From Paeniglutamicibacter sulfureus (GTDB taxonomy: Bacteria > Actinomycetota > Actinomycetes > Actinomycetales > Micrococcaceae): a DNA stretch of 64,000 nt. The notes beneath the pieces were generated by a model. It was given only the letters and a program-made list of their open reading frames with translations. It was not told where the DNA came from and ran no database searches. The stretch spans positions 2,046,001-2,110,000 of the forward strand of contig NZ_BAAAWO010000001.1 of assembly GCF_039535115.1 (NCBI RefSeq), read 5' to 3'. Below, piece after piece: positions 22,276 through 52,810 of this stretch; within the stretch, counting starts at the first letter, position 1; each line of letters opens with the position of its first letter. Position numbers and translations under genes: made by a program.

Positions 22276-24684
22276 TTGAATGCACATATTGCGGCCAAGC
22301 GGCACACGCTGCTGCATGCAATCATCACGGTTTTGCTCGGCCTGTTCTTGATCGCCTTCGTGGCGTTCTACGCGATGTTCTCATCCCAGGTGGCCAGCGG
22401 CGCCTCGGACCTCAATAACGGCATGGGCAAGGCCAACGACGGAGTCGCCAAGCTGGCCGACGGGTCCTCCGGCGCCGCCGCCGGCGCCGCCGAACTGGCC
22501 GCCGGCACCGGTGCACTGTCCGAGGGCGCACAGAAACTTGCCAAGGGTGCGGAAAAGGCAGCGACCGGCGCAGTCAAGTTGACGGACGGTGCGGGCACCC
22601 TGCACGCAGGGACGACCAAGCTTTCGATCGGCGCCGGGGACGCCGAGGCCGGCGCGGCCAGGCTCGGCAACGGGGCAGCTGAACTGTCCGCCGGCGCGAA
22701 GAAGATCGCCGCCGGCACCGATGCGGTCGATGCCGCCGCGGGCAAACTCAACGCCGGTGCGGGCAAGTTGGCCGCGGGTGCGAAGGACGCGACAGTGGGT
22801 GCAGACGCACTCAGTGAAGGTTCATCCAAGCTGGCCACCGGTGCCGGTTCGCTCGCCGCGGGCACCGGCGCACTGGACACCGGGGCTCAGTCGCTCAGGG
22901 ATGGTTCCCAGCAGCTCTCGGCCGGCATGTCCCAGCTCGGCATCGGCACGGTCAAGGTCAACACCGGAGCCCACGACCTCTCGGTGGGCGCGCAGCATCT
23001 CTCGGAGGGAGCCGGCGCGGCCAACGACGGTGCGCAGAAGCTTGCCGCCGGTACGCAGGCGGCAAATGCCGGTGCGCAGAAGCTTGCCGCGGGCACCACA
23101 AGTGCTGCCGCGGGGTCCGATGCCCTGGCGGCCGGCAGCAACAAGTTGCTCGGCGGTGTCGAGGAGCTGGCCAGCAAGGCCCCGGCCCTGGTTGAAGGCG
23201 TGGCGGCACTCAAGGACGGCTCCGGACAGCTGGCGGACGGCAGCACCAAGCTGGCCGCGGGCACCCGGAAGCTGGCCGACGCCGCACCCAAACTGCGCGG
23301 AGGCATCGTGGCCGCCCAGGAAGGTTCCGTGGGTGTCGAAACGGGCGCCAAGGGCCTGGCCGAGGGGCTGGCCACCGCCGACGGAAAAACGGGCGAACTG
23401 ACGGACGGTTCCGGACGCCTGTCGAAGGGCCTGGGCGACCTTGCCGCGTTCGTGAAGGCGAATCCCGCGGTGCCGTCGGGCCTGTTGCTGGAGCAGATCA
23501 ACGCACTCCATGACGGTTCCCAGGACCTGAATGCCGGCATGGAGAAGCTGCACGACGGTACCGCCAATCTTTCTGCCGGTGCCAAGAAGCTGGCCACCGG
23601 AAGCGGCCAACTGGCCGACGGCATGGATTCCCTGAAGCTGGGGACCAAGGACCTCGTTGGCCAAACGGACGCCCTGAACGACGGGGCACAGGCTGTCAAG
23701 ACCGGAGCCGCCAGGCTGGACGGCGGGCTGGGCCAGCTCAGTGAGGGGTCCAAGGCCCTGGGTGCGGGCATCGGCGCACTGAAGACCGGAGCCACCGCGC
23801 TCAATGCCGGGGCGCAGGACCTGAACTCGGGGCTCGGACAGCTGGACGCCGGCTTCAACGACTCCTCCAAGGGCCTGTTGGCCGGACTCGGCGCCCTGGG
23901 CAACGGGGCCTCCCGGCTGGCCGAGGGCACCGACGCTCTGGCCGCCGGTAGCACCCAACTCAGCACCGGGGCCGGCACGCTGGCCCAGGGCACCGCCACC
24001 CTCCAGGACGGAGCCGGCAGGCTCACGACCGGGGCGGACGCCCTGGCTGCGGGCGGCAGCAAGCTCGCGGACGGCACCTCGGCCCTGGATGCCGGAGCCG
24101 GCAAGCTCAACGCTGGCGCCCATGAACTTGCGGCCGGCGGCAAGAAGCTTGCTGCCGGCACCGACAAGTTGGCAGCGGGCACCGGGTCGCTCAAGGCCGG
24201 AACCTCCGAGTTGGCGTCAAAGACCCCCGCGCTGGCACAGGGAGCCGACTCCGCGGCAGCCGGTGCCGACAAGCTCGAGGCCGGTGCCACGAAACTGGCT
24301 GCCGGCAACGCGAAGATCGCCCGCGGTGCCGAGGAGCTTGACGCCGGGGCGGCCAAGCTCGCCGGCGGCAGCGAAACCCTGGGCATGGGCCTGGAGGCGT
24401 TGCGCAACGGTTCCGGTGATTTGTCCACGGGTGCCACCAAGCTCGATGACGGTGCCAACCGGCTCGCCGACGGCAATTCGCAACTGGCCGCCGGACTGTC
24501 CACCCTCTCCGAGGGTTCGACCCAGCTGGCCGGCGGCACCTCGCGGTTGGAGGCCAGCACGCGGGCCGTTTCGGCATCCAAGATCGGCAGCGGCCCCAGC
24601 GCGCTGCTGCTCCTGATCCCGGTGGCCTTGCTGCTGATCCCGGCGCTCATCATGATGCGGAACCGCCGGCACCTGCGCGGTTAG
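22276..24684 (+). CDS. Giant heptad-repeat membrane protein (YhgE X-heptad type)
   Basis: An 802-residue protein: a membrane helix near residues 11-33 (LLHAIITVLLGLFLIAFVAFYAMF), about 720 residues of nearly continuous 7-residue repeats, then a second helix (ALLLLIPVALLLIPALIMM) and a short basic tail RNRRHLRG. Repeat units read like KLAAGTD, ALAAGSN, ELSAGAK; Gly, Ala, Leu and Ser dominate. Such repeats form the middle of YhgE/Pip-family proteins, but the Pip N-terminal and ABC-2-type C-terminal domains are absent here. The protein would form a long periplasmic-side stalk anchored at both ends. The TTG start at 22276 has AGGAG 5 nt upstream and no ATG fits. Function unknown; perhaps wall- or surface-related. 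Confidence 0.85.
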   Translation: MNAHIAAKRHTLLHAIITVLLGLFLIAFVAFYAMFSSQVASGASDLNNGMGKANDGVAKLADGSSGAAAGAAELAAGTGALSEGAQKLAKGAEKAATGAVKLTDGAGTLHAGTTKLSIGAGDAEAGAARLGNGAAELSAGAKKIAAGTDAVDAAAGKLNAGAGKLAAGAKDATVGADALSEGSSKLATGAGSLAAGTGALDTGAQSLRDGSQQLSAGMSQLGIGTVKVNTGAHDLSVGAQHLSEGAGAANDGAQKLAAGTQAANAGAQKLAAGTTSAAAGSDALAAGSNKLLGGVEELASKAPALVEGVAALKDGSGQLADGSTKLAAGTRKLADAAPKLRGGIVAAQEGSVGVETGAKGLAEGLATADGKTGELTDGSGRLSKGLGDLAAFVKANPAVPSGLLLEQINALHDGSQDLNAGMEKLHDGTANLSAGAKKLATGSGQLADGMDSLKLGTKDLVGQTDALNDGAQAVKTGAARLDGGLGQLSEGSKALGAGIGALKTGATALNAGAQDLNSGLGQLDAGFNDSSKGLLAGLGALGNGASRLAEGTDALAAGSTQLSTGAGTLAQGTATLQDGAGRLTTGADALAAGGSKLADGTSALDAGAGKLNAGAHELAAGGKKLAAGTDKLAAGTGSLKAGTSELASKTPALAQGADSAAAGADKLEAGATKLAAGNAKIARGAEELDAGAAKLAGGSETLGMGLEALRNGSGDLSTGATKLDDGANRLADGNSQLAAGLSTLSEGSTQLAGGTSRLEASTRAVSASKIGSGPSALLLLIPVALLLIPALIMMRNRRHLRG

Positions 24685-26581: not shown

Positions 26582-27766
26582 CTAGGCCCAACCCACCACC
26601 AGCCGCGCCGCCTGGACCGGTATCGTCGGGTCAACGCCGGTGAGCTCGGTAAAGCGCTTCAGCCGGTTCATCAGGGTGTTGCGGTGGCAATACAAGCGTT
26701 CCGCGGCCTGCGAGATGCTGCCGGTTTCCAGGTAGGCGGCCACTGCTTCTCCCAGCCGGCGGCGTTCGGTGGTCCCGCAATTTTCCAGGGCCCGCTCCAC
26801 CTCGCCGAGTCCCGGCGCTCCCGCCCTGTCGAGCTCGCGCCTGGCCATGCGCGCCCAGCCCCGCGTCCAAGTCATGGCTCCCTGCTCCGCCGGCTCGAGC
26901 AGCTTGGCCAACGATGCGGCGACCGCCGCCGCATGTGGAACCCGTTCCAGGGTGCAGCCTTCCACAATCAACCCGCAGGTCAGCCGCTCAAGACTCGCAG
27001 ACAGCCGCTGGGCCCGGGATCCGGCCCGTAGCCCCAGCGGGAAGAACACCACCAGCGCATCCGCCCTTGAATAGGTAAACACCTGGTTGCCGGCCCGCGC
27101 ATTTGCCAGGGCAAGGCGCAGAGCCGGTATGTGGTCCCACGACGCAACCGCCACCACATATTCCGTCGCCAGGTCCTGGCCGAGGTCCTCTGCTATCCGT
27201 TCCAGTTCGGTCGGGGTCAGGTTCTTCTCGCTGAACAGCGTCGCGAGGTATCCCTGCCGCACGCTGTCTGCCTCCGCCTGGATCCTCGCGAGCTCTGCGA
27301 CATAAGCCCGCTGGGTCTCCCCGGCGTAGCCGTCGACCACTTCCCAGACCCGGGTGGTGTGCCCGACCAGCAACAGTGCGTCCTCCGGCTCGGCAATGCC
27401 AGTGATGGCCTCCCAGATCACCGAGAAGTCCAGGCGGATCGCCGTCATCAGCGCCTCGATCGGGACGCCGGCCCGTGCCCGCGAGACTCCCACGTCCAGG
27501 GCGATGGCATCGCGTTCGCGAAGGTAGTCAGGATGATCATCCACCGTCTTCATCGCCAGGAGCAGTGCCTCGAAGGAAGCGCTTCCCGTACGCCTGATTT
27601 CACTGACGGGCAGCGGGGAAACGGCATAGCTGGGAACGGCACCGAGGCGTTCAATGAATTCCTCCGTCAGTTCCGCGACGTCCAGCCGCTCCAGCAGCGC
27701 TGTACAGCGCGCGGCATCATCCGATTGGTCGTTTGGCGTGATTCCTGCGAAATCCGGCGTTAACAT
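26582..27766 (-). CDS. PucR-family transcriptional regulator
   Basis: A 394-residue regulator. The C-terminal PucR helix-turn-helix is clear: VAAYLETGSISQAAERLYCHRNTLMNRLKRFTELTGVDP, about residues 340-380. The N-terminal ~300 residues form a sensor region of the PucR/CdaR type with a GGDEF-like fold in the centre (EYVVAVASWDHIPALRLALANARAGNQVFTY). It is divergent from the MHS symporter gene, with a 161-bp intergenic region holding two inverted repeats. PucR proteins usually activate degradation of purines, allantoin or other nitrogen compounds, so control of the 27.9-34 kb catabolic cluster is the natural prediction. Confidence 0.9.
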   Translation of the reverse strand: MLTPDFAGITPNDQSDDAARCTALLERLDVAELTEEFIERLGAVPSYAVSPLPVSEIRRTGSASFEALLLAMKTVDDHPDYLRERDAIALDVGVSRARAGVPIEALMTAIRLDFSVIWEAITGIAEPEDALLLVGHTTRVWEVVDGYAGETQRAYVAELARIQAEADSVRQGYLATLFSEKNLTPTELERIAEDLGQDLATEYVVAVASWDHIPALRLALANARAGNQVFTYSRADALVVFFPLGLRAGSRAQRLSASLERLTCGLIVEGCTLERVPHAAAVAASLAKLLEPAEQGAMTWTRGWARMARRELDRAGAPGLGEVERALENCGTTERRRLGEAVAAYLETGSISQAAERLYCHRNTLMNRLKRFTELTGVDPTIPVQAARLVVGWA

Positions 27767-27779
27767 TCCCCCATATTAT

Positions 27780-27791
27780 GTGCATTTGCAC
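27780..27791. promoter_or_regulatory. Inverted repeat near the PucR start
   Basis: GTGCA-TT-TGCAC, 14 bp before the PucR start codon. A candidate autoregulatory operator; assignment is inference. Confidence 0.35.
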
Positions 27792-27853
27792 CGTTTGTGG
27801 TGTGCAACTCGTTGTGAAACGTGCGCCACGTCACCGCCGATCCTTGGCAAGAT

Positions 27854-27870
27854 TGGTGGGGTCCCCACCA
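27854..27870. promoter_or_regulatory. 17-bp perfect inverted repeat before the MHS gene
   Basis: TGGTGGGG-T-CCCCACCA, 58 bp upstream of the symporter start at 27928 and in the PucR/MHS divergent region. It may be the PucR activator site for the catabolic genes, or a short hairpin in the leader. Confidence 0.45.
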
Positions 27871-27927
27871 TCGGATGGCGAGCAGCGACGCAGCGGCCCT
27901 CCCCTTGAGATTCAGGCAGATAATCCC

Positions 27928-29250
27928 ATGACCCACACTGGAACACTCGAAGCCGGTGCAACACGGCAGATCTCCGACAAGGAGGCCACCAAGGTTGCCA
28001 TCGGCGCCCTCATTGGCACGGCCATGGAGTGGTACGACTTCTTCCTCTTCAGCGCCGCAGCGGCGCTGGTCTTCAACGTCCAGTTCTTCGCCAGCCAGAA
28101 CGCCACCGCGGCCGCCATGGCAGCCTTCGCCACCTTCGGCGTCGGGCTCGTGGCCCGGCCCATCGGCGGCATGATTTTCGGCGTGATGGGAGACAAGATC
28201 GGGCGCCGCAAGACGCTCATGGTCACCATCGTCGGCATTGGCGTGATCACCGGCCTGATCGGCCTGCTGCCGACCTACGCCGCCATCGGCATCGCCGCCC
28301 CGATCCTCCTGGTGCTCCTGCGCATCATGCAGGGCCTGTTCGTCGGCGGCGAGTGGTCCGGCGCCATGACCATCGTGGTGGAAAACGCGCCGCTGCACCG
28401 ACGTGCCCGCTATGCCGCATTGCCGCAGATCGGCTCCCCGATCGGCACCATCCTCTCCTCCGGCGGCTTCTTCCTGATGACTGTGTTCTTCTCGCAGGAA
28501 AGCTTTGACGCCTGGGGCTGGCGCGTGCCGTTCCTTGCAGCGATCCCGATGCTGCTGGTTGCCCTGTACATCCGCAGCCGCCTCGACGAGTCCCCGGTCT
28601 TCAAGGAACTCATGGAGAAGGGCGAGACCGAAAAGGCCCCGATCCGCACCACGCTGAGGGAATCCTGGAAGCAAATCATCATCGGCATGGCCGCCGGCAT
28701 GCTCGGCATCGGCGGCTTCTACCTGGTCACCGCGTTCGTGGTCTGGTACGGCGTGAACGTGCTGGACTACAAGCCCTCGCTGATGCTGGCCGGCGGCATC
28801 ATTGCCGCGGTCGTTGAAATCCCGGTGCTGATCATCGGCGGCCGCCTCGGCGAGCGCTTCGGCTCCTCCAAGGTCATCACCTACGGCGGCATCTTCTCTG
28901 CCATCATCGCATGGCCCGCTTTCCTGCTCATCGAATCGGGCAGCGACGTGCTGGTGATTGCCGGCATGACCCTCGCGGTCGCGGCCCTGTCGCTGCCGTA
29001 CGCCGCCTCCGGCACGGTGCTCACCGGCCTGTTCCCGGCCAAGACCCGCTACACCGGCGTCGGCTTCGCGCAGAACACCGCCGGCATGATCTCCGGGTTC
29101 ATCCCGCTGGCCGCCACCGCCTTGGTCGCAGCCGCGTCAAACCACTGGTGGCCGGCCGCAGCCATGCTCATCTTCCTCTCCCTGTTCACCGCAGTGGCCG
29201 GGGTCATCGCGCCCCGCCTCAGCGTCGACCTGCCCGGCTTCAAGCACTAG
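27928..29250 (+). CDS. MHS-family metabolite:H+ symporter
   Basis: A 440-residue major facilitator protein with about 12 helices of the metabolite:H+ symporter type. Signature stretches: ALIGTAMEWYDFFLFSAAAALVFNVQFF at the start and ARPIGGMIFGVMGDKIGRRKTLMVT (motif A with GDKIGRRK). MHS members import carboxylates, betaines or related organic acids. ATG 27928 is preferred to upstream positions because family similarity starts there. It is the first gene of a plus-strand cluster of enzyme genes, so it likely imports the substrate of that pathway. A 17-bp perfect hairpin separates it from the next gene. Confidence 0.92.
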   Translation: MTHTGTLEAGATRQISDKEATKVAIGALIGTAMEWYDFFLFSAAAALVFNVQFFASQNATAAAMAAFATFGVGLVARPIGGMIFGVMGDKIGRRKTLMVTIVGIGVITGLIGLLPTYAAIGIAAPILLVLLRIMQGLFVGGEWSGAMTIVVENAPLHRRARYAALPQIGSPIGTILSSGGFFLMTVFFSQESFDAWGWRVPFLAAIPMLLVALYIRSRLDESPVFKELMEKGETEKAPIRTTLRESWKQIIIGMAAGMLGIGGFYLVTAFVVWYGVNVLDYKPSLMLAGGIIAAVVEIPVLIIGGRLGERFGSSKVITYGGIFSAIIAWPAFLLIESGSDVLVIAGMTLAVAALSLPYAASGTVLTGLFPAKTRYTGVGFAQNTAGMISGFIPLAATALVAAASNHWWPAAAMLIFLSLFTAVAGVIAPRLSVDLPGFKH

Positions 29251-29258
29251 CACCCCCC

Positions 29259-29297
29259 CTTCCGTGGTCCCCGCACCTTGTGCGGGGACCACGGAAG
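29259..29297 (+). terminator. Perfect 17-bp hairpin between MHS and ThDP-enzyme genes
   Basis: CTTCCGTGGTCCCCGCA at 29259-29275 pairs perfectly with 29281-29297 around a 5-nt loop, starting 9 bp after the symporter stop. There is no T tract, so it may be a partial terminator or an RNA-processing/stability element that sets transporter and enzyme levels apart. Confidence 0.6.
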
Positions 29298-29344
29298 CAT
29301 CCTCCATCTTCACCACGCTCCACCACAAAGGACCACCACAGCCC

Positions 29345-30985
29345 ATGAGCACCTCAGCCGGACACCTCATCGTCAAGACCCTCGAGGCACACGGTGTCTC
29401 CCGCGTCTATGCAGTACCGGGGGAAAGCTACCTCGATGTCCTCGACGGCCTGCACGACGCCGGGATCCACACCGTGGTCACCCGCCACGAGGGCGGTGCA
29501 GGATTCATGGCCCTGGCCGAAGGTCGCCTCGGGTCGGTGCCGGGCATTGCCATGGTCACCCGCGGCCCCGGGGCCGCCAACGCCATGATCGCCATCCACA
29601 CCGCCTGGCAGGATGCCACTGCCATGGTGCTCTTCGTCGGGCTGATCCCGCTGGCCGACCGCGGCCGCGACTCTTTCCAGGAGTTCAGCCTGGAGGGCTG
29701 GTTCTCCACCACCGCCAAGGGAGTTTTTGTACTCGATGACGAGCACCAGGCCGGGGATCTTGTGGCCCGCGCGCTGCGCCTGGCCACCACCGGCCGCCCG
29801 GGACCCGTGGTGGTGGGACTGCCCGAGGACGTGCTGGTCCGCATGACAGACTCCCCCGTTCCCGCCGTCCACCCGCTGCCGGAGGCCGCCCCGGGCGCCG
29901 CCGGCCTGCGGACGCTGGCCACCCTGCTGTCTGCCGCGCAGCGCCCCGCCATCATCGTTGGCGGGGACGGCTGGGACGCCGACACCTCGGGCGCATTGGC
30001 CGACTTCGCCGTAGCCGCCCACGTCCCGGTGCTTGCCGACTGGCGCGCCTACGACGCCATCGACCACGACTCCCCCGCCTACGCCGGCTGGCTGGGCTAC
30101 GGCCGGGCCGAGCGCACCGTCGCCGCGCTGAACGATGCCGACCTGCTGGTCTTCATCGGCTGCACCCGCTCCGATGTGCTCTCCGAGGGCTACAAGTCGG
30201 CTCTGGACACCCCGACCATCGTGGTCTCCAACGACGCGGAGCTCATCGGCCACGCCGGACGGATCGACGCCCACTTGGGAGTGTCCCCCGCCGAGTTCGT
30301 CGCCGCGCTGCCCGCGGGCGACTCCCTGAGCGGAACACGCGGAGCCCAGTGGATGGAGGGACTTCGGACCGAACAGCTGGCCTTCACCCGTCCCGGACCC
30401 GACGGCGGCACCGGCGTGGATCTCGGCATCGCGTTCGAGGCCCTGGAAGCGGCACTGGATGCCGACCGGATCATCACCTACGGCGCCGGCAACGCCACCC
30501 TGTGGGGCCACCGCTACCTCTCCCACCACGGACCGAGGTCCCTGGTGGGTCCGCGCAACGGCGCGATGGGGCTTTCGGTCCCGGCGGCCGTGGCGGCAAG
30601 CATCATGCACCCGGGGCGCCACGTCGTGGCAATCTGCGGGGACGGGGACTTCTTCATGAACGCCCAGGAACTGGCCGTTTCCTTTGCCCATGGCGGTACC
30701 CCGCTCATTATCGTGGTGGACAACGGCATCTTCGGCACCATCGTGGCCCACCAGCAGCAGCACTACCCGCAGCGTCCCTCGGGCACCGCGATGGAGAACC
30801 CGAACTTCGCCCAGTGGATTCAATCCTTCGGCGGGCACGGGGAGTTTGTGGAAAGCACCGCCGACTTCGCCCCGGCCCTCGAGCGGGCACTGGCCAGCGG
30901 CCTGCCGGCGGTGCTGCACCTCAAGACCGACCCCTCCACCATGGGCCCGGGCACCGTGGCGCACCGCGCGGAGGCCAACGCATGA
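29345..30985 (+). CDS. Thiamine-diphosphate enzyme, acetolactate synthase-like
   Basis: A 546-residue ThDP-dependent enzyme of the acetolactate synthase/decarboxylase superfamily. The catalytic Glu49 lies in TRHEGGAGFMALAEGR, and the ThDP-Mg motif is GDGDFFMNAQELAVSFAHGGTPLIIVVDN (residues 432-460). The central domain is present. The enzyme would decarboxylate or ligate a 2-keto acid; which one is not clear, and it is not adjacent to ilvN, so valine biosynthesis is unlikely. Related catabolic members act on guanidino-oxo acids, benzoylformate or oxalyl-CoA. It overlaps the amidohydrolase gene by 4 bp (ATGA, 30982-30985), so the two are translationally coupled. Confidence 0.9.
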   Translation: MSTSAGHLIVKTLEAHGVSRVYAVPGESYLDVLDGLHDAGIHTVVTRHEGGAGFMALAEGRLGSVPGIAMVTRGPGAANAMIAIHTAWQDATAMVLFVGLIPLADRGRDSFQEFSLEGWFSTTAKGVFVLDDEHQAGDLVARALRLATTGRPGPVVVGLPEDVLVRMTDSPVPAVHPLPEAAPGAAGLRTLATLLSAAQRPAIIVGGDGWDADTSGALADFAVAAHVPVLADWRAYDAIDHDSPAYAGWLGYGRAERTVAALNDADLLVFIGCTRSDVLSEGYKSALDTPTIVVSNDAELIGHAGRIDAHLGVSPAEFVAALPAGDSLSGTRGAQWMEGLRTEQLAFTRPGPDGGTGVDLGIAFEALEAALDADRIITYGAGNATLWGHRYLSHHGPRSLVGPRNGAMGLSVPAAVAASIMHPGRHVVAICGDGDFFMNAQELAVSFAHGGTPLIIVVDNGIFGTIVAHQQQHYPQRPSGTAMENPNFAQWIQSFGGHGEFVESTADFAPALERALASGLPAVLHLKTDPSTMGPGTVAHRAEANA

Positions 30986-32649
30986 GACTCGATCTGCTGG
31001 TGCGCGCCGGTACCATCCTGACCATGGACGAGGACCGCCCGACGGCACGCGAAATGGGGATCATCGGCGGGCGCATCGTGGGCTTCGACGAGGAACTGGC
31101 CGGATGCACCGCGGATCGCACCGAGGACTTTGGCGAAGCGACCATCACCCCCGGATTCATCGACGCGCACTGCCACACCACCTGGTGGGGGCTGGGGCTC
31201 GCGGCCCTTGACCTGTCGCCGGCACGCGGGCTGGAGGAACTCTATGCCCTGCTCGAATCCGAGGTGTACCGGCTTGCCGCCACCCCGGGCGTGTGGCTCA
31301 ACGGCACCGGCTTCAACCACAAGAACCACGACGGGCAGTTCCCCGACATCAAACGGCTCGACGCGATCACCGGGGACCGGCCGCTGTACCTGCGCCACGT
31401 CTCCGGGCACGCCTCGATCACCAACACCGCCACACTGAAACTGGCCGGGGCGCTGGAGCCGGGCTTCGCCGATCCCGTGGGCGGCGCCGTGGTGCGCGAT
31501 GCGCAAGGCTCCCCCACCGGGCTGGTCGAGGAATCGGCCCAGGGGATCATCCAGAAGATGCTGCTGCCCTACTCGGCGGACCAGATCGTCGGCGCACTGG
31601 ACGCCGCGACCGCCCGCTACGCCGCCGAGGGCATCACTTCCTTCACCGAGGCAGGCATCGGCGGGGGCTGGATCGGCCACTCCCCCGTGGAAGTCACCGC
31701 CTACCAGCGGGCGCTGGCTGCCGGGAAGCTCCATGCCCGCGCCCAGCTGATGCCGACGCTCGACGCCCTGCGCGGGCAGGAATCGCACGCCGCCGACGCC
31801 CACGGCACCGGCACCGGGTTGGGGTTGGACCTGGGCATCACGGCGGGGTTCGGCAACGAGCACCTTTCGCTGGGCCCGGTCAAGGTGTTCATGGACGGAT
31901 CGCTCCTGGGCGCCACCGCCGCGGTGACGGAGGACTATTGCGGGCACCAGCACAACACCGGCTACCTGCTCGATGACCCCCAGGCTTACCGGGAACGTGT
32001 GGCGGCTGCCTACCGTTCCGGCTGGCCCGTGGCGCTGCATGCCATCGGCGACGCGGCCATCGACCTGGCCATCGAGATCATCTCCGGGCTGCAGGAAAAG
32101 CACGGCCCCAACGCGCTGCCCAACCGCATCGAGCACTTCGGCATCGCCCGCCCGGACCAGGTGGAGGCGGTGGCCAGGCACGGCATCGCGGTGACCCCGC
32201 AGGCCTCCTTCATCGGCCCGCTGGGCGACCAGTTCGCCAAGCTCGTCGGTCTCGAGCGCCAGGGCTGGCTCTACCGGGGCCAGTCGCTGCTGGATGCCGG
32301 GGTCCTGGTGGCAGGCAGCTCGGACTTGCCGGTGGCCGACAACAACGTGCGCCGCGCCATGGCCTCCGCCGTGGACCGCTTGACCGAAAAGGGCCTGGTG
32401 CTCGGCGGTGCGGCGGAATGCCTGAGCCCGCTCGAGGCGCTGCGTCTGTACACCGTCAATGCCGCCAAGGCCACCGGTCTGTTCGCCGACCGCGGGTCCC
32501 TGGCCCGGGGCAAGCTCGCCGATTTCGTGGTGCTCTCCGAGTCCCCGTTGCTGGCCCGGAACATTGCTGACCTCCAGGTCATGGGCACCTTCGTCGGCGG
32601 CAGGCAAAGCCACGCGCGTGCCGATAACGACGCGCTGGCCACCGCCTGA
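30982..32649 (+). CDS. YtcJ-like amidohydrolase
   Basis: A 555-residue metal-dependent hydrolase of the amidohydrolase_3/YtcJ family. The metal ligands His63 and His65 are in TPGFIDAHCHTTWWG; other signatures are NGTGFNHKNHDG, SGHASITNTATLKLAG, HAIGDAAIDLAIE, RIEHFGIARPDQ and AGSSDLPVADNNVRRAMASAV. The family includes N-substituted formamide deformylase from Arthrobacter. It is the middle enzyme of the PucR-linked cluster, coupled to the ThDP enzyme upstream, and is followed after 46 bp by an M20 amidase. It probably opens or deacylates a C-N bond in the pathway's substrate. The true substrate is unknown. Confidence 0.9.
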   Translation: MRLDLLVRAGTILTMDEDRPTAREMGIIGGRIVGFDEELAGCTADRTEDFGEATITPGFIDAHCHTTWWGLGLAALDLSPARGLEELYALLESEVYRLAATPGVWLNGTGFNHKNHDGQFPDIKRLDAITGDRPLYLRHVSGHASITNTATLKLAGALEPGFADPVGGAVVRDAQGSPTGLVEESAQGIIQKMLLPYSADQIVGALDAATARYAAEGITSFTEAGIGGGWIGHSPVEVTAYQRALAAGKLHARAQLMPTLDALRGQESHAADAHGTGTGLGLDLGITAGFGNEHLSLGPVKVFMDGSLLGATAAVTEDYCGHQHNTGYLLDDPQAYRERVAAAYRSGWPVALHAIGDAAIDLAIEIISGLQEKHGPNALPNRIEHFGIARPDQVEAVARHGIAVTPQASFIGPLGDQFAKLVGLERQGWLYRGQSLLDAGVLVAGSSDLPVADNNVRRAMASAVDRLTEKGLVLGGAAECLSPLEALRLYTVNAAKATGLFADRGSLARGKLADFVVLSESPLLARNIADLQVMGTFVGGRQSHARADNDALATA

Positions 32650-32695
32650 ACCACCATCACCTCCCTCCCCGAACAACCACATTGCAGGAGACACC

Positions 32696-33988
32696 ATGAC
32701 GTCGAACAACAGCGCATTCCTGGCCGATTTCACCTCGATGAGCACCCATGGTGCGACCGCCGGCGGCGGAGTTGACCGCCAAGCGGCCACCGTTGCCGAC
32801 GGGCAGAACCGCAACTGGTTCCGCGGCTTGGTGGAGGGGCACGGCTTCACCGTGCGTTACGACGCGGTCGGCAACCAGTACTCGATGCTTGAGCTGGCTC
32901 CCGGCGCCCCCTGGATCGCCGTGGGCTCGCACCTTGATTCCCAGCCGCTGGGCGGCCGCTTCGACGGCGCCTACGGTGTGCTGGCCGGGGCGCATGCGGC
33001 CAAGCGTGTCCAGGAGTCCCTGGCCGGTGCCGGGGGCGAGGCGAAGTTCAACATCGTGGTGGTCAATTGGTTCAACGAAGAGGGTTGCCGGTTCAAGCCC
33101 TCGATGATGGGCAGCTCCGTCTACACCGGCAAGCTCGGCGCCGCCCAGGTGCTGGAGACCACCGACCCCGACGGAGTCACGGTTCGCGAGGCGCTTGAGG
33201 CCATCGGGACCATCGGGGACTTCGAGTTGCCGGTGGCCGCCTATGTGGAGATCCACATCGAGCAGGGACGCTCATTGGAAGACAGGGAACTGACCATCGG
33301 GCTGGTCGAATCGACCTGGGGCGCGAACAAGTACGAATTCGTGGTGCACGGCGACCAGGCGCACACCGGCGCCACTGTCATCGCCGACCGCCAGGACGCA
33401 CTGCTGGGTGCCTCCGCGCTGGTGGTTGCCGCACGCGAGATCGCGCTGGAACACTCCACCGAGGAGCACATGGTGATCACCTCTTGCGGCGAGTTCAACG
33501 TCTTCCCGAACTCCCCGGTGGTGGTTGCCAGCCGCGTGAACTTGCTGGTGGATGTGCGCTCCACCGACCCCGACGTGCTGGCCGCCGCGGATGCGGACCT
33601 GCACGCCCGCGTGGCACGGATTGAGAAGATGGCCAACGTGCGGATCGAGCGTGGCGCCGAACATGTGTGGGGGGCCAAGGCCTACGACCGGGCCGGGTTG
33701 GAGCTTGCGGCCCAGGCGGCAGATTCGTTGGGCCTGCGCCACGGTGTGGTGCGCACCCTTGCCGGCCACGATTCGACGAACATGAAGGACATGGTCCCAA
33801 CCATCATGCTTTTCATTCCCAGCGTCGAGGGCATCAGCCACAACGAACGCGAGCTGACGAAAGATGCGGACATGCTCGCCGGGGTGGACCTGCTGGCCGA
33901 GGTGCTCCTGCGCGTGGTGCGCGGTGAATTTGTTTCCGCTGCCGGAAACGTGCAGGATGCTGAAGCGGATTCGTCCCTCGTACCCTAA
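32696..33988 (+). CDS. M20-family amidase/hydantoinase-type hydrolase (N-carbamoyl amino acid or ureido hydrolase-like)
   Basis: A 430-residue zinc hydrolase. Metal ligands are visible at GSHLDSQPLGGRFDGAYG (His79, Asp90) and NWFNEEG (Glu128-Glu129); then AYVEIHIEQGRSLED and GISHNERE near the C-terminus complete the pattern of the M20 N-carbamoyl-L-amino-acid/allantoate amidohydrolase group. AGGAG lies 5 nt before the ATG at 32696. It ends the plus-strand cluster. The presence of a ureido- or carbamoyl-amidase in a PucR-linked cluster points to a nitrogen-rich substrate. No urease or carbamate kinase gene is nearby. Confidence 0.9.
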   Translation: MTSNNSAFLADFTSMSTHGATAGGGVDRQAATVADGQNRNWFRGLVEGHGFTVRYDAVGNQYSMLELAPGAPWIAVGSHLDSQPLGGRFDGAYGVLAGAHAAKRVQESLAGAGGEAKFNIVVVNWFNEEGCRFKPSMMGSSVYTGKLGAAQVLETTDPDGVTVREALEAIGTIGDFELPVAAYVEIHIEQGRSLEDRELTIGLVESTWGANKYEFVVHGDQAHTGATVIADRQDALLGASALVVAAREIALEHSTEEHMVITSCGEFNVFPNSPVVVASRVNLLVDVRSTDPDVLAAADADLHARVARIEKMANVRIERGAEHVWGAKAYDRAGLELAAQAADSLGLRHGVVRTLAGHDSTNMKDMVPTIMLFIPSVEGISHNERELTKDADMLAGVDLLAEVLLRVVRGEFVSAAGNVQDAEADSSLVP

Positions 33989-47919: not shown

Positions 47920-50900
47920 CTAGATAACCGCGTCGCTCAAGTGGTTCGGGGTGCCGAAGCGGTGCGCGGTGATGGAGACCGCCTGCTCGTGCAGGAAGGT
48001 CAGCATTTCCACCCGCCCTGCGGAAACCACGTTGTTGCCGTAGATGGCGACATCGGGCTTGCCTCCGGTGGCCTCGGCCACGTCCAGGACCGAGCCGCCG
48101 ATCAGGCGGATGCGGGCCGCGGAATCCGGGCCGGTTTTGGCGGCCAGGCGGGCGGCGCGGGCGCCGAAGGCCTGGGCATCCTCAACCACGACGGTGGCAG
48201 AGGATTCGGCGAGCACCGTGCGGATTGCCGAGGGAATCTCGACCGCGGAGGAAACCGTGACGCGGGATCCGGCGGCGATGCCCGCGGCAACGACGCGCAG
48301 CAGTTCCGCGATGCCGTGGCCCGAGGTCTCGTTCTCGAAGCGAATCGTCACCGGCAGGGCGCGGTAGCGGAACACGTTGCGCTCCGCGTGCAGGCCGGAG
48401 ACGTCCTTGGCGGTGTTGAACTCAGTGGTCCAGACGGCGTTGTCCGACGCCAAGGCACCCTCGAGCCAGGAAAGATCTGCCTCGGCGATGTCGGTTCCGC
48501 GCGCGGCGTTCAGCAGTGCGGTCGAGGTGGCCGAAAGCTGGCCGGCCTGTGCCACCGGGGCGTCTTCCCAGGAGCCCATGCCCACCAGGTAGTTCGGTCC
48601 GCCCGCCTTGGTGCCGGCACCGATGGCCGACTTCTTCCAGCCGCCGAAGGGCTGTCGCTGCACGATGGCACCGGTGATGCCGCGGTTGATGTAGAGGTTG
48701 CCGGCCTGGATGTTCTCCAGCCAGTAGGCCATCTCGCCCGAATCCAGCGAGTGCAGGCCGCTGGTCAGCCCGTAGTCGATGTCGTTGACGATGGAGACGG
48801 CCTCTTCGAGGGTCTCTGCGGTCATCACGCCGAGGATCGGGCCGAAGTACTCGGTCAGGTGGTACTCGGAACCGCGCTTGACGCCGGAGCGCACACCCGG
48901 GCTCCACAGCTTGCCCGACTCGTCAAGCTTCTGGGGCTCGAGCACCCACTTCTCGCCCTCGCCCAGGGTGGTCAGGCCGCGCAGCAGCTTGCCCTGTGCC
49001 GGTTCGATGACCGGGCCCATCTGGGTCTGCGGGTCCTGCGGGTAGCCGACCTTCAGTGAGCGGATGTCATCGATCAGCTGGTTGTGGAAGCGCTTGGAGT
49101 CCGCTGCCGAACCCACCAGGATCACCAGTGAGGCGGCCGAGCACTTCTGGCCGGCGTGGCCGAAGGCCGAGGCGGCGACGTCCTTGGCCGCCAGGTCCAG
49201 GTCGGCGTTCGGGGTGACGATCACCGCGTTCTTGCCGCTGGTCTCGGCCAGCAGCGGCAGGTCCTTGCGGAAGGAACGGAAGAGCTGGGCGGTCTCGTAG
49301 CCGCCGGTGAGGATCAGGCGGTCGACGGCCGGGTGCGAGACGAGCTCGGTGCCCAGGTCGCGCTCGGAAAGCTGGACCAGCTGCAGGACATCGCGCGGCA
49401 CGCCGGCTTCCCACAGGGCCTCGACCATGACCGCGCCGGAGCGTGCCGCCTGGCCGGCGGGCTTGATGATGACCGAGGAGCCGGCGGCCAGCGCCGACAG
49501 GGTCGAGCCAGCGGGGATGGCGACCGGGAAGTTCCACGGCGGGGTGACGACGGTCAGCTTCGAGGGCACGAAGGTGGCGCCGTCGATCGTGTACAGTTCC
49601 AGGCCGCGCTGGGCGTAGTAGTGGGCGAAGTCGATGGCCTCTGAGACCTCGGGGTCGCCCTGGTCAAGGGTCTTGCCGCATTCGGAGCCCATGACCTCGA
49701 GCAGGTCGGCGCGGCGGGCCTCGAGGGCGGCACCGGCGCGGTGCAGGATGGCGGCGCGGGCCTTGGCGCCCATGGCCTGCCAGGATTCGGAAGCCGAAAC
49801 TGCGGTCTCGACGACAGTGTTCAGCTCGTCCTCGGTGTGGATCATGGCCTTGGCCACCGAATCAACACCGAGGGTCGAGCCGACCATCTTGTTGACGATC
49901 TCCCGGCCCCAGGCACGGTTGCCCGGCAGGTCCGGGTCGGTGTCGGGGGTGTTCTCGAAGTCGAGGGTGCCGTCGGCCAGCCCGGCAAGCTTGGCCTCCA
50001 CGGCGGCGGCGTCGACCACGTTGCGGTCCTGGATGCGGTGCGGGGCCGGGATGCTGTCATCCAGGTCGGCCAGGGAGGCCAGGAAGCGGTTCTTCTCGCG
50101 CTCGAACAATGCCTCGTTCTTGTCCAGCTCGAAGACCGCGGACATGAAGTTCTCCTGGCTGGCGCCCTCTTCGAGGCGGCGGATCAGGTAGGCGATGGCA
50201 ACGTCGAACTCGCCCGGGTGCACGACCGGCGTGTAGAGCAGCAGGCGTCCGACGTCCTTGCGCACGGCCTCGGCCTGGCCGGTGGCCATGCCCAGCAGCA
50301 TCTCGAATTCGATGCCGGCGGTGACGGAACGGCCCTGGGCCAGCAGCCAGGCCAGGGCGACGTCGAAGAGGTTGTGGCCGGCGATGCCGATGCGCACGTT
50401 TTCCACGTGCCCGGGGCGCAGCGCGTAGTCCAGCACCGACTTGTAGGAGGTGTCCGAGTCCTGCTTGGTGTTCCAGGTGGCGACCGGCCAGCCGTGCAGG
50501 TTGGCTTCCACCTGCTCCATCGGCAGGTTGGCGCCCTTCACGACGCGGACCTTGATCGGGGCTCCGCCCAGACCCACGCGTTTCGCGGACCATTCCTGCA
50601 GGTGGATCATGGCCGAGAGGGCATCGGGCAGGTAGGCCTGCAGCACGATGCCGGCCTCGAGGTCGCGGAATTCTTCGCGGTCAAGGATCTTGGTGAAGAC
50701 CGCAATGGTCAGGTCCAGGTCCTTGTACTCCTCCATGTCCAGGTTGATGAACTTCTTCTTGGGCGCGGAGGTGACGGCCAGGCGGTAGAGCGGGATGAGC
50801 TTCTCGATGATGTGCTCGACGGCCTCATCGAAGGCCCAGTGGTTGTGCGGGGCCACGGTGGAGGAAACCTTGATGGACACGTAGTCGACATCGTCGCGGG

Positions 50901-51456
50901 CCAGCAGCTTGTGGGTGCCTTCGAGGCGGCGGGCGGCTTCGCCCTCGCCGAGGATGGCCTCGCCCAGGAGGTTGACATTGAGGTCGATGCCTTCCTTCTT
51001 GATCTTGGAGATCGAGGCGCCGAGCTTGGCGTCGGTGGCGTCGATGATCAGGTGGCCGACCATCTCGCGCAGCACCTTGCGGGCGATCGGGACGACGATG
51101 CCCGGCATGATCGGGGCCATGGTGCCGCCGAGGGCGACCGCAGACTTCATATACCAGGGCAGGAAGGAGGGAACCTTCGGGGCCAGGGACTTGAGGTTGC
51201 GGGCCGCGACCTTCAGGTCCTCGGGGCGGATCACGCCGTCGACGAAGCCGACAGTGAAGTCCAGGCCGTTGGGGTCCTTCAATACGCCGGCAAGCTGTGC
51301 CGCTGAGGCATCCACCGGGACTTTCGAGCCCTCCGTGAGCCAGTGGCGCACCAGCTTGATGGTCTCGTCGGCCAGGTCTTGGGGGCGGACCAGGGGGGTG
51401 CCATCGGCGGCGAGGGCCGGTGGGACTACACGCACGTGCGAAGTCGATTGGGACAC
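47920..51456 (-). CDS. putA: Bifunctional proline dehydrogenase / L-glutamate-gamma-semialdehyde dehydrogenase
   Basis: A 1178-residue cytoplasmic, membrane-associated flavoenzyme that oxidises proline to glutamate in two steps. The N-terminal ~500 residues are the PRODH barrel (DYVSIKVSSTVAPHNHWAFDEA, KKKFINLDMEEYKDLDLT, VRVVKGANLPMEQ). From about 520 comes the NAD-dependent aldehyde dehydrogenase: VVTPPWNFPVAIPAGST, AETSGKNAVIVTP and the catalytic Cys772 in HAGQKCSAASLV. No N-terminal ribbon-helix-helix DNA-binding domain, so it is not its own repressor. GTG 51456 has AGGAG 8 nt upstream. The divergent LysR gene is the likely regulator. Confidence 0.96.
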   Translation of the reverse strand: MSQSTSHVRVVPPALAADGTPLVRPQDLADETIKLVRHWLTEGSKVPVDASAAQLAGVLKDPNGLDFTVGFVDGVIRPEDLKVAARNLKSLAPKVPSFLPWYMKSAVALGGTMAPIMPGIVVPIARKVLREMVGHLIIDATDAKLGASISKIKKEGIDLNVNLLGEAILGEGEAARRLEGTHKLLARDDVDYVSIKVSSTVAPHNHWAFDEAVEHIIEKLIPLYRLAVTSAPKKKFINLDMEEYKDLDLTIAVFTKILDREEFRDLEAGIVLQAYLPDALSAMIHLQEWSAKRVGLGGAPIKVRVVKGANLPMEQVEANLHGWPVATWNTKQDSDTSYKSVLDYALRPGHVENVRIGIAGHNLFDVALAWLLAQGRSVTAGIEFEMLLGMATGQAEAVRKDVGRLLLYTPVVHPGEFDVAIAYLIRRLEEGASQENFMSAVFELDKNEALFEREKNRFLASLADLDDSIPAPHRIQDRNVVDAAAVEAKLAGLADGTLDFENTPDTDPDLPGNRAWGREIVNKMVGSTLGVDSVAKAMIHTEDELNTVVETAVSASESWQAMGAKARAAILHRAGAALEARRADLLEVMGSECGKTLDQGDPEVSEAIDFAHYYAQRGLELYTIDGATFVPSKLTVVTPPWNFPVAIPAGSTLSALAAGSSVIIKPAGQAARSGAVMVEALWEAGVPRDVLQLVQLSERDLGTELVSHPAVDRLILTGGYETAQLFRSFRKDLPLLAETSGKNAVIVTPNADLDLAAKDVAASAFGHAGQKCSAASLVILVGSAADSKRFHNQLIDDIRSLKVGYPQDPQTQMGPVIEPAQGKLLRGLTTLGEGEKWVLEPQKLDESGKLWSPGVRSGVKRGSEYHLTEYFGPILGVMTAETLEEAVSIVNDIDYGLTSGLHSLDSGEMAYWLENIQAGNLYINRGITGAIVQRQPFGGWKKSAIGAGTKAGGPNYLVGMGSWEDAPVAQAGQLSATSTALLNAARGTDIAEADLSWLEGALASDNAVWTTEFNTAKDVSGLHAERNVFRYRALPVTIRFENETSGHGIAELLRVVAAGIAAGSRVTVSSAVEIPSAIRTVLAESSATVVVEDAQAFGARAARLAAKTGPDSAARIRLIGGSVLDVAEATGGKPDVAIYGNNVVSAGRVEMLTFLHEQAVSITAHRFGTPNHLSDAVI

Positions 51457-51685
51457 GGCTGCTTCTCCTAGGAAGAAAGGGGTGGCTGGGGAGCTACCAC
51501 TACCCATCTTGCACACGAATGGTGTCGCATTGATAGGCGGGGTTCACCAGACAGTATGACCCTTTTCATCCCTTCAGCAAAAGTGAACAAAGCCGAATGT
51601 TTTCCTTCGGTTTTCCCAATGTATTCTGGGGTGTCATCAACCACCGTGATCCACAGGGATCACCCGGCCCACCCGGGAGCCGACC
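51457..51685. promoter_or_regulatory. putA / LysR divergent promoter region
   Basis: 229 bp between the divergent starts. LysR proteins usually bind such a region at T-N11-A inverted repeats; a weak candidate CCCA-N8-TGGG occurs around 51616-51632 but I cannot assign it firmly. Confidence 0.4.
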
Positions 51686-52630
51686 ATGCTGGAAATCCGA
51701 CGCCTGCGACTGCTGCGCGAACTGAGCATCCGCGGCACCATCGCCGAGGTCTCCGACGCGCTGAGCTACAGCCCCTCCTCGATCTCCCAGCAGCTTTCAC
51801 TGCTCGAAAAGGAGACCGGCGTGAAACTGCTACGCAAGGTCGGGCGGCGCCTGCAACTGACCCCGCAGGCCGAGGTGCTGGTGGCACACACCGACGAATT
51901 GCTTGATTCCATGGAACGGGCCGAGGCAGACCTCGCCTCCACCCAGCAGGCCGTGGCCGGCACGGTGCGCCTGGCGGTCTTCCAAACCGCGGTACTTTCG
52001 CTGATCCCCTCGGTGCTGCGCGAGCTGCGCCAGGACTTCCCCCACCTGCGCGTGGAAATGGTGCAGCACGAACCGGAAACGGCGCTTCATGAGACGTGGG
52101 CGCGGGATTTCGACCTGGTCGTCGCGGAGCAGTACCCCGGCCATGCGGCGCCGCACTATGCCACCCTGGACCGCAAGATCCTGGCCCACGATGCCATCCG
52201 CCTGGCCCTGCCGGCGCGGGACGAGGCGATGCCTGCCGAGTTCCACCATGTCACTGCCATCGAGGCCGCCGCCGGCCTGCCCTGGGTCATGGAACCGCGT
52301 GGCGCGGCCTCGCGGCACTGGGCCGAACAGGCCTGCCGCATGGCCGGGTTCGAACCCGACGTGCGCTACGAGACCGCAGACCTGCAGGCCCACGTCAGGC
52401 TGGTCGAATCCGGCAACGCCGTGGCCCTTCTGCCGGACCTGGTCTGGGCCGCCCGCAAGCGCGAACTGCGCATCGTCGATCTGCCCGGGGCGCCGCAACG
52501 CACCATCTTCACCTCGGTGCGCCACTCCTCCACCCAACACCCGGGGCTGGTCGCGGTCCGCAACGCCCTGCATGCCCAGGCGGCCACTCTTCCGGCGCCC
52601 ACGGGCGTCGACCCGGGGGCTGTAAGTTAG
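51686..52630 (+). CDS. LysR-family regulator, likely of proline catabolism
   Basis: A 314-residue LysR protein with the winged helix at residues 1-60 (MLEIRRLRLLRELSIRGTIAEVSDALSYSPSSISQQLSLLEKETGVKLLRKVGRRLQLT) and a C-terminal effector domain starting VRLAVFQTAVLSLIPSVLRELRQDFPHLRVEMVQ. It lies between divergent putA and the proline symporter gene in its own direction, which strongly suggests it controls both in response to proline or a derivative. The putP gene begins 180 bp downstream with its own leader. Confidence 0.9.
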   Translation: MLEIRRLRLLRELSIRGTIAEVSDALSYSPSSISQQLSLLEKETGVKLLRKVGRRLQLTPQAEVLVAHTDELLDSMERAEADLASTQQAVAGTVRLAVFQTAVLSLIPSVLRELRQDFPHLRVEMVQHEPETALHETWARDFDLVVAEQYPGHAAPHYATLDRKILAHDAIRLALPARDEAMPAEFHHVTAIEAAAGLPWVMEPRGAASRHWAEQACRMAGFEPDVRYETADLQAHVRLVESGNAVALLPDLVWAARKRELRIVDLPGAPQRTIFTSVRHSSTQHPGLVAVRNALHAQAATLPAPTGVDPGAVS

Positions 52631-52810
52631 GTCACAAACAGGTAACGCCGGGGTGAGAGCGGCCACACGGCATCGAATTTTCCTGTCATACTCGAGGTCG
52701 GTTGCGAACGAACGGCACGTGCCACGGGGCAGTGCAACCATGCCCCCGGCAGCAAAACACGCCGAGGATCACCTTTCCCCGGCTCGCCCAACCTTCATGA
52801 GGTCCACAAC

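Follow-up and report, generated by a model that had tools for sequence, protein, structure and literature searches.

In our study we analysed a window of 64,000 nucleotides (the whole stretch of Paeniglutamicibacter sulfureus DNA considered here) and describe a set of genes to which we give an even chance of being a PucR-controlled unit for uptake and degradation, the product of which would enter the GABA shunt. The gene of the PucR-family regulator (394 aa; 26582..27766, minus strand) is divergent from the operon and its product carries a C-terminal HTH_30 domain (PF13556; 3.2e-16, 59.3 bits against a cut-off of 27 in the domain search). Family searches assigned the four genes on the plus strand. 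The first encodes an MHS-family metabolite:H+ symporter of the MFS (440 aa; 27928..29250), whose top NCBIfam model, TIGR00883 metabolite/H+ symporter, reached 356 bits and stayed under its cut-off of 443. It is followed by a gene for a ThDP-dependent 2-oxo acid decarboxylase or carboligase (546 aa; 29345..30985) with three TPP domains and a score of 541 bits on NF006052/PRK08199 (cut-off 539). The third gene encodes a YtcJ-like metal-dependent amidohydrolase (555 aa; 30982..32649) which matches Amidohydro_3 (PF07969) at 1e-73. The last encodes an M20 amidase (430 aa; 32696..33988) with a Peptidase_M20 domain and a score above the cut-off of the hydantoinase/carbamoylase family TIGR01879 (264.3 against 204 bits). 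The ATG of ytcJ at 30982 overlaps the TGA of the ThDP gene, which ends at 30985, in the sequence ATGA. These five genes, their overall span and families, the divergence of pucR and the ATGA coupling had been named in the original prediction, and ORF positions and family searches confirmed them all. The 94-base gap between the MHS and ThDP genes folds at -40.6 kcal/mol and contains a perfect 18-bp inverted repeat (29259..29297, plus strand) that might act as an attenuator. This hairpin is not conserved, with an inverted repeat of at least 8 bp in 7 of 39 homologous gaps.

That the five families form one catabolic unit, as had been proposed, is supported by their gene neighbourhoods. All four partners were found beside YtcJ in 31 of 76 distinct copies fetched by similarity, which is the commonest arrangement. 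This count, from which identical sequences were removed, depends on the identity limits: the M20-like genes of L187, L188 and L190 fell under the limit and were scored absent, and the YtcJ of L091 lay outside the limits and is not among the 76 copies. Moreover, PucR relatives were present in 31 of 37 loci and the gene order recurs across many genera, which makes the cluster more than a chance arrangement. Ten YtcJ copies with 50-54% identity had none of the partners within the limits applied in the 76-copy count, so the YtcJ family is found outside the operon too. In the family f29, 14 out of 150 genomes had a YtcJ match at E 1e-130. Among the YtcJ regions from this family (11 fetched and L074) only L074, L091 and L092 were of the operon type, and the other nine were set aside as cousins in different contexts. 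The f29 cousins occupy loci that we read, from the sequence alone, as siderophore-type, and two of them adjoin a formyltransferase-like gene.

Some loci contain parts of the set. L032, L035, L037, L165, L167 and L168 have MHS and YtcJ but neither ThDP nor M20, and L259 and L260 have ThDP and M20 but lack YtcJ. In these last two loci the operator recurs next to a second PucR, in the order PucR', operator, ThDP-M20, beside MHS2-RidA-RraA-ArgE/DapE. Therefore, the two pairs may serve separate substrates. It is conceivable, though we rate it rather low, that one regulator controls two independent modules, MHS with YtcJ for one compound and ThDP with M20 (with MHS2 and the RidA-like and RraA-like proteins) for another, which have only an inducer or an end product in common. 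The overlap of the ThDP gene with ytcJ in the window and the prevalence of the four-partner arrangement argue against this and for a single unit.

The YtcJ metal ligands H63, H65, K301, H353, H385 and D448 (HxH, Lys, His, His, Asp) were identical in 84 of 84 aligned copies, which include three siderophore-locus cousins; this enzyme may bear a family resemblance to N-substituted formamide deformylase (NfdA). All 52 aligned copies of the ThDP enzyme have the Asp and Asn of its cofactor motif, and 50 have the active-site Glu, at which the other two show a gap. In M20 carbamoylases an Asn and an Arg of the lid bind the carboxylate of the substrate. The lid Arg is kept in the window M20. In place of the Asn all 33 aligned operon copies have Val and the paralogue of the same genome has Ile, whereas five of the five displayed solved homologues keep the Asn. 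This replacement argues against a plain carbamoylase. Among the models named allantoate amidohydrolase the window M20 exceeded the cut-off of one (427 against 424 bits). Scores on the ErtD and ErtE models remained far under their cut-offs (25.9 against 650 and 245.8 against 520). From protein length, our first guess for the ThDP enzyme had been AruI. However, the NCBIfam model that bears the name 5-guanidino-2-oxopentanoate decarboxylase is NF005712/PRK07524, and the window enzyme falls in PRK08199; the former model was not among the best 25 for the window enzyme, and the relative L073 scored 203 on it against a cut-off of 500. We therefore dropped the AruI family identity and kept the function as an analogy.

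In three relatives of one family a urease-like pair occupies the ThDP/M20 position, which makes a compound with a ureido or guanidino group more likely. The protein of L074 is urease-like only, since it reached 561 bits on the urease alpha equivalog TIGR01792, under the cut-off of 680, and exceeded that of the broader NF009686 (680 against 354). A substrate containing a urea, formamide or guanidine group, as first suggested, is one possibility: the urease-like pair speaks for its ureido or guanidino forms, the lid Val speaks against a plain carbamoylase, and N-acyl compounds and lactams are alternatives. We see limited room for an acyl (formyl or acetyl) blocking group, as in N5-acylornithine, N6-acetyllysine or hydroxamate siderophore units, which YtcJ and M20 would remove as deacylases. 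The siderophore-type setting of the f29 cousins, two of them beside a formyltransferase-like gene, would fit such a group. In the available text of a preprint (PMC13081902) the metal-dependent bile salt hydrolase of Bilophila, a YtcJ-like metalloenzyme and thus similar to the window YtcJ family, is reported to cleave the amide of taurine bile salts, although its substrate and gene context differ from ours. The second hydrolases of the operon and its relatives, however, are of the carbamoylase, AS-amidase or urease-like type, which argues against an acyl group.

Regulation by PucR was approached through a candidate operator, TGTGCATTTGCACC (27779..27792, unstranded), which was identified by sequence conservation and has the consensus TGTGC[AT]NNTGCACA. 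It lies 12 bp before the start codon of pucR and 135 bp before that of the MHS gene. With up to two mismatches, TGTGCANNTGCACA was found in 50 of 53 pucR-MHS gaps compared with a mean of 0.6 and a maximum of 3 in shuffles; the 53 loci include near-duplicates or the same contig twice (e.g. L024/L157, L035/L166, L037/L164, L038/L169). The window PucR presumably binds the operator sites. The genome of the window contains eight exact matches, none at a gabD gene; two are intergenic and one of those precedes gabT2.

The gabT2 product exceeded the cut-offs of two GABA transaminase models (753 against 639 and 568.1 against 506.65 bits), and the motif precedes this gene in our genome and in five further genomes of the genus. 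A search of 50 genomes yielded 30 loci, which were examined for the site together with our genome; with at most one mismatch, only 6 of the 24 loci that came from YtcJ-bearing genomes had it. This low share and the lack of a gabD gene among the eight exact matches count against the GABA link. Furthermore, the operator palindrome was found in perfect form 139-175 bp before gabD, the succinate-semialdehyde dehydrogenase gene, in 14 of 14 scanned genomes of the related genus g8, all of them YtcJ-bearing, and the motif precedes gabD in two genomes of the genus g262. At the gabD sites the half-sites are constant and the spacer bases vary. Since the operator motif is common to the cluster and the GABA genes, the pathway probably ends at GABA or at the C5 homologue. 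Operator control of the glutarate cluster L065 in our genome was rejected, as it had no exact site and no more inexact matches than chance would give (10 against an expected 10.6). In the exact-site genome scan, matches without a locus were inspected, except the core site G990:C54 and strand duplicates. Other non-core matches that were inspected were rejected because they lie inside genes or beside genes with no recognisable connection (L245, L247, L248, L249, L252, L253, L256, L257/L265, L258, L263, L264) or, in the g8 scan, inside genes (L277, L280, L284); four more non-core g8 matches were left out (two in G1276:C66, one in G1252, one in G1271).

The sites before gabD and gabT2 could instead belong to a different, GabR-like PucR that shares the motif, so that the link to GABA would be indirect; we consider this unlikely. 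According to the available text of its description (PMC7652997), GabR of C. glutamicum is a PucR-type regulator which binds inverted repeats and controls gabTDP with the GABA transaminase and succinate-semialdehyde dehydrogenase genes. That text, in which the GabR motif appears as a figure, contains no TGTGC. The operon of the window PucR differs in that it encodes import, decarboxylation and hydrolysis. A separate regulator would also suit the second PucR in L259 and L260 and two further genes of our genome that we take for PucR-type regulators, one in L065 with a weak match to PmfR and one in L068 that matched no NCBIfam model. On the other hand, within the genus the gabT2 site at one mismatch was found in none of three members without YtcJ and in 6 of 11 with it, although these numbers are small and G917, which lacks YtcJ, has the site once two mismatches are allowed. 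Moreover, the exact-site scan gave gabD in g262 only, unlike a general GABA motif.

The neighbours in related operons extend the link between cluster and GABA. An aldehyde dehydrogenase gene, absent from the window operon, lies between the ThDP and YtcJ genes in five related loci, and the top model for the enzyme of L176 is aminobutyraldehyde dehydrogenase (593.5 bits, cut-off 615). Genes for a GabT-type transaminase, an aldehyde dehydrogenase, a CoA-transferase III and glutaryl-CoA dehydrogenase adjoin the core in several lineages, and some related operons adjoin 5-aminovalerate/glutarate genes. The GABA link lowers the probability that the cluster degrades an allantoin-like or hydantoin-type ureide and that its ThDP enzyme works in the manner of glyoxylate carboligase, a reading which we regard as very improbable: the PucR family and the M20 score on one allantoate amidohydrolase model fit it, but the operator shared with GABA genes, the missing lid Asn, the aldehyde dehydrogenase of related operons and the catalytic Glu of the window ThDP enzyme, which glyoxylate carboligase is not known to have, speak against it.

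For the pathway to GABA we compared operon conservation, the common operator motif and gene neighbours, from which we infer the substrate, the order of steps and the enzyme activities. The MHS symporter would import an omega-N-blocked acid (amino, hydroxy or 2-oxo), either C5 and of the arginine/ornithine type or C6 and of the lysine type. The ThDP enzyme would convert the 2-oxo acid to an aldehyde one carbon shorter, to be oxidised by an aldehyde dehydrogenase which is encoded in the operon in some relatives and presumably elsewhere in our genome. YtcJ and a second hydrolase would take off the omega-N group, most likely from guanidino to ureido to amine; the second hydrolase would be M20 in the window, and relatives may use an amidase of the AS family or an enzyme resembling a nitrilase or a urease. 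In the C5 case GABA would pass through GabT and GabD to succinate, and in the C6 case 5-aminovalerate would yield glutarate and glutaryl-CoA. The logic of import, two C-N bond hydrolyses and a 2-oxo acid step holds as originally outlined, with the genes conserved together. The original prediction knew of no described pathway with exactly this set; likewise, our literature search recognised none, and proteins of solved structure match only remotely, with at best 226 bits for M20, 100 for YtcJ and 193 for ThDP.

More tentatively, the operon might represent a natural PucR-controlled 2-oxo-acid-decarboxylase route that turns basic amino acids with a blocked omega-N into GABA and, where glutarate genes are present, lysine-type compounds into 5-aminovalerate via 2-keto-6-aminocaproate. 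YtcJ and the variant M20 would be new guanidino/ureido or acyl deblockers, with the urease-like complex as their equivalent in distant relatives. In the literature, as far as its available texts extend, the 2-keto-6-aminocaproate route was found only as an engineered pathway. If our proposal is true, it would give roles to members of three large families about which little is known (YtcJ, PRK08199 ThDP enzymes and PRK09290.2-1 M20 amidases) and possibly offer a natural enzyme source for 5-aminovalerate production. The orphan enzyme set also gains a testable end point, GABA or 5-aminovalerate, and a defined operator.

In hyu hydantoinase/carbamoylase systems an amidohydrolase is followed by an M20 carbamoylase-family enzyme. 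The cluster resembles these systems and ErtD/ErtE of ergothioneine utilisation in this succession, whereas its YtcJ belongs to Amidohydro_3 and a ThDP step is added. The arginine transamination network (AruH/AruI; AspC-IlvB1 of S. meliloti), as described in the available text of PMC7268258, shares with the proposed route a ThDP decarboxylase, an aldehyde dehydrogenase, C-N hydrolysis to GABA, a GABA transaminase and a succinate-semialdehyde dehydrogenase. According to the same text, the AruI-related IlvB1 decarboxylates 5-amino-oxopentanoate better than 5-guanidino-2-oxopentanoate, and its route leads from 4-aminobutyraldehyde to GABA and succinate. In contrast to this network, the window ThDP enzyme belongs to another NCBIfam subfamily, YtcJ and M20 replace the ureohydrolase, and the cluster has no alpha-transaminase in the operon, an MHS importer and PucR control.

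The five core genes lie at the positions proposed in the original prediction and belong to the families named there, as confirmed by re-derived ORF coordinates and searches with family models. The window (G000:C1:2046001-2110000) is part of a 4.57-Mb chromosome, and its nearest named relative by YtcJ in a protein scan with one genome per species was Paeniglutamicibacter sulfureus (99% identity). We placed the starts of the MHS and ThDP genes at 27928 and 29345, both internal ATGs, and the gene caller picked identical starts. The gap between these genes contains a perfect inverted repeat of 18 bp around a 3-base loop (29259-29297), which among the gaps examined recurred in one locus only (L004). 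The protein scan yielded 37 loci, in which tblastn located MHS in 36 (one a contig-end fragment; the 37th contig begins inside the ThDP gene), M20 in 32, PucR in 31 and a ThDP gene immediately adjoining the core in 29. Together with further loci from whole-genome searches these comprised 76 distinct YtcJ copies, classed by identity limits. PucR, MHS, ThDP and M20 surrounded 31 copies, PucR and MHS seven, PucR, MHS and M20 six, and PucR, ThDP, M20 and an aminobutyraldehyde-type dehydrogenase five, while ten had none of these partners and the remainder were smaller mixtures; this sample was chosen by YtcJ similarity, and its class counts are not population frequencies. YtcJ is patchily distributed, being present at an E value of 1e-150 in 70 of 395 own-family genomes, in 24 of 398 in the family of a Cryobacterium (G211) and in 4 of 394 of a class-wide sample.

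The palindromic operator between pucR and the MHS gene was found with at most two mismatches to TGTGCANNTGCACA in 50 of 53 loci with divergent PucR and MHS (missing in L022, L159 and L160). Base-shuffled controls in these loci gave a mean of 0.6 and a maximum of 3 in 200 rounds, a contrast that is descriptive, as the consensus was derived from the same 53 loci, which are related to one another and partly near-duplicates. The operator is also present in the three loci of family f29 that have this type of operon (2, 1 and 0 mismatches). In the window only the best match (27779-27792) is informative, because 14 matches were found at two mismatches compared to 9.4 expected. The own chromosome contains eight exact matches to TGTGCWNNTGCAC, compared to three in a backward-read control; six lie inside called genes, and the two intergenic ones are the pucR-MHS site and a site at 1.64 Mb before gabT2, whose protein scored above two GABA-transaminase cut-offs. 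We compared 31 regions upstream of gabT2: with at most one mismatch, the site occurred in 6 of 24 from YtcJ-bearing genomes and in none of seven from genomes without YtcJ. All six belong to the own genus, where the site is present in 6 of 11 genomes with YtcJ and 0 of 3 without; taken alone this difference is weak. The six sites differ in their spacer bases and have constant half-sites. With two mismatches allowed, the site also appeared in G915 and G941, which carry YtcJ, and in G917, which does not.

The same motif was found upstream of gabD. A scan with the full palindrome gave matches in 18 of 30 YtcJ-bearing genomes, the noteworthy intergenic ones besides the core sites lying at gabD in two genomes of genus g262 (G990, G1006) and at a PucR'-ThDP' locus in G956 and G1013. 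In a second scan with TGTGCANNYRCACA, 15 of 16 YtcJ-bearing genomes had matches. Fourteen of the scanned genomes, all YtcJ-bearing, belong to genus g8, and each of them has a perfect palindrome 139-175 bp upstream of gabD, which encodes succinate-semialdehyde dehydrogenase (SSADH). The operon was inspected directly in four of them (L176, L177, L182, L194; in L182 the ThDP gene is absent beside the core), and the others have YtcJ at 57-60% identity or, for some, a visible PucR-MHS pair. The g262 relative serving as gabD comparison scored best on SSADH models, below the cut-off (554 versus 646 bits). The PucR regulator is the candidate partner of these operator sites.

In four loci (L016, L017, L021, L022) the genes adjoining the core encode an aldehyde dehydrogenase, a glutaryl-CoA dehydrogenase and a class III transaminase of GabT type; L016 and L017 add a CoA-transferase III, L021 and L022 an amino acid permease. 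Glutaryl-CoA dehydrogenase is also encoded near the core in L015, L018 and L035; the best matches of the L018 protein among solved structures were glutaryl-CoA dehydrogenases (1.4e-158). In the own genome the transaminase/glutarate genes are clustered apart from the core, at 3.86 Mb (L065), and the CoA-transferase encoded there was nearest to the succinate-glutarate CoA-transferase model but below its cut-off (355 versus 750).

Several operon variants were observed. Five loci (L176, L177, L178, L179, L194) carry an aldehyde dehydrogenase gene between the ThDP gene and ytcJ; the L176 protein matched aminobutyraldehyde dehydrogenase PRK13473 best (593.5 bits, cut-off 615). L161 and L038/L169, the latter a single contig from two sources, have a gene of the 2-hydroxyacid dehydrogenase family together with an operator-like site; the L161 protein was under every model cut-off. 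In L175, L176, L178 and L182, MHS2-RidA-RraA genes lie beside the core. G956 and G1013 have a second locus without YtcJ, comprising PucR', the operator, ThDP-M20 and MHS2-RidA-RraA-ArgE/DapE; in L259 the ArgE/DapE protein was above its cut-off (644.8 versus 376), the RidA-like protein slightly under (96.9 versus 106.25), and the RraA gene is a putative assignment. In three f29 genomes the genes are arranged as PucR | UreAB-like, UreC-like, YtcJ, MHS, the urease-like genes lying at L074:7458-9751, L091:5454-7729 and L092:6157-7836 (UreAB-like not called in L092); with 561 bits, the L074 UreC-like protein stayed below the cut-off of 680 for the urease alpha equivalog. An AS-family amidase gene adjoins ytcJ in L172 and L183, and L170/L171 have a putative nitrilase-like gene close to ytcJ, for which the NCBIfam search gave no match.

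The operon aldehyde dehydrogenase of relatives, SSADH and GABA transaminase under the same motif and the glutarate-gene neighbours indicate that the pathway probably yields C4 and C5 omega-amino acids. Sequence comparison shows the operon with its conservation, operator and variants, as well as the motif before GABA genes; the pairing of regulator and sites, the substrate, the step order and the chemistry are inferred. A published S. meliloti network is a precedent for the route: its AruI-related ThDP enzyme IlvB1 prefers 5-amino-oxopentanoate to 5-guanidino-2-oxopentanoate, and 4-aminobutyraldehyde and GABA are intermediates on the way to succinate (PMC7268258). The corresponding C6 conversion of 2-keto-6-aminocaproate to 5-aminovalerate has been described as an artificial pathway (PMC7900509). 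Removal of the omega-N group would fall to YtcJ and M20; a preprint reports amide hydrolysis by a YtcJ-like enzyme (PMC13081902). The M20 protein retains the metal-site motifs and the downstream Arg. The lid position, Asn in each of the five displayed solved homologues, is occupied by Val in all 33 aligned operon copies; gene calling truncated three of these copies, so that their first metal-site columns are missing. Because of this replacement, the window M20 is predicted not to be a standard carbamoylase. Searches of open full texts gave no recognised description of the cluster; most subscription papers lie outside this scope, and novelty is thus not proven.

Elsewhere in the window, a 783-aa protein (22333-24684) has short Gly/Leu-containing repeats and a transmembrane-like C-terminus, with no match in a Pfam search at 1e-8, and 47920-54328 encodes a PutA-type proline dehydrogenase/ALDH fusion and a sodium:solute symporter. 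In the Cryobacterium loci L015 and L018 a PutP-type symporter immediately adjoins pucR. YtcJ cousins (about 47-52% to L074) occur in siderophore transport/biosynthesis-like f29 loci (L093, L094, L096-L099), in two of them beside a putative formyltransferase-like gene; as an idea only, they may act on N-formyl-hydroxyornithine siderophores. The own genome encodes a second PRK08199 ThDP enzyme (L066:10016-11692, 572.6 bits) with no recognised operon partner nearby. It also contains a second M20 (about 51%) and MHS (about 35%) pair at 9251-11916 of L067 (G000:C1:2455001-2475000), accompanied by putative amidase-like and PrpF-like genes. This locus appears to be another, uncharacterised MHS/M20 system, and its M20 has Ile at the lid Asn position.
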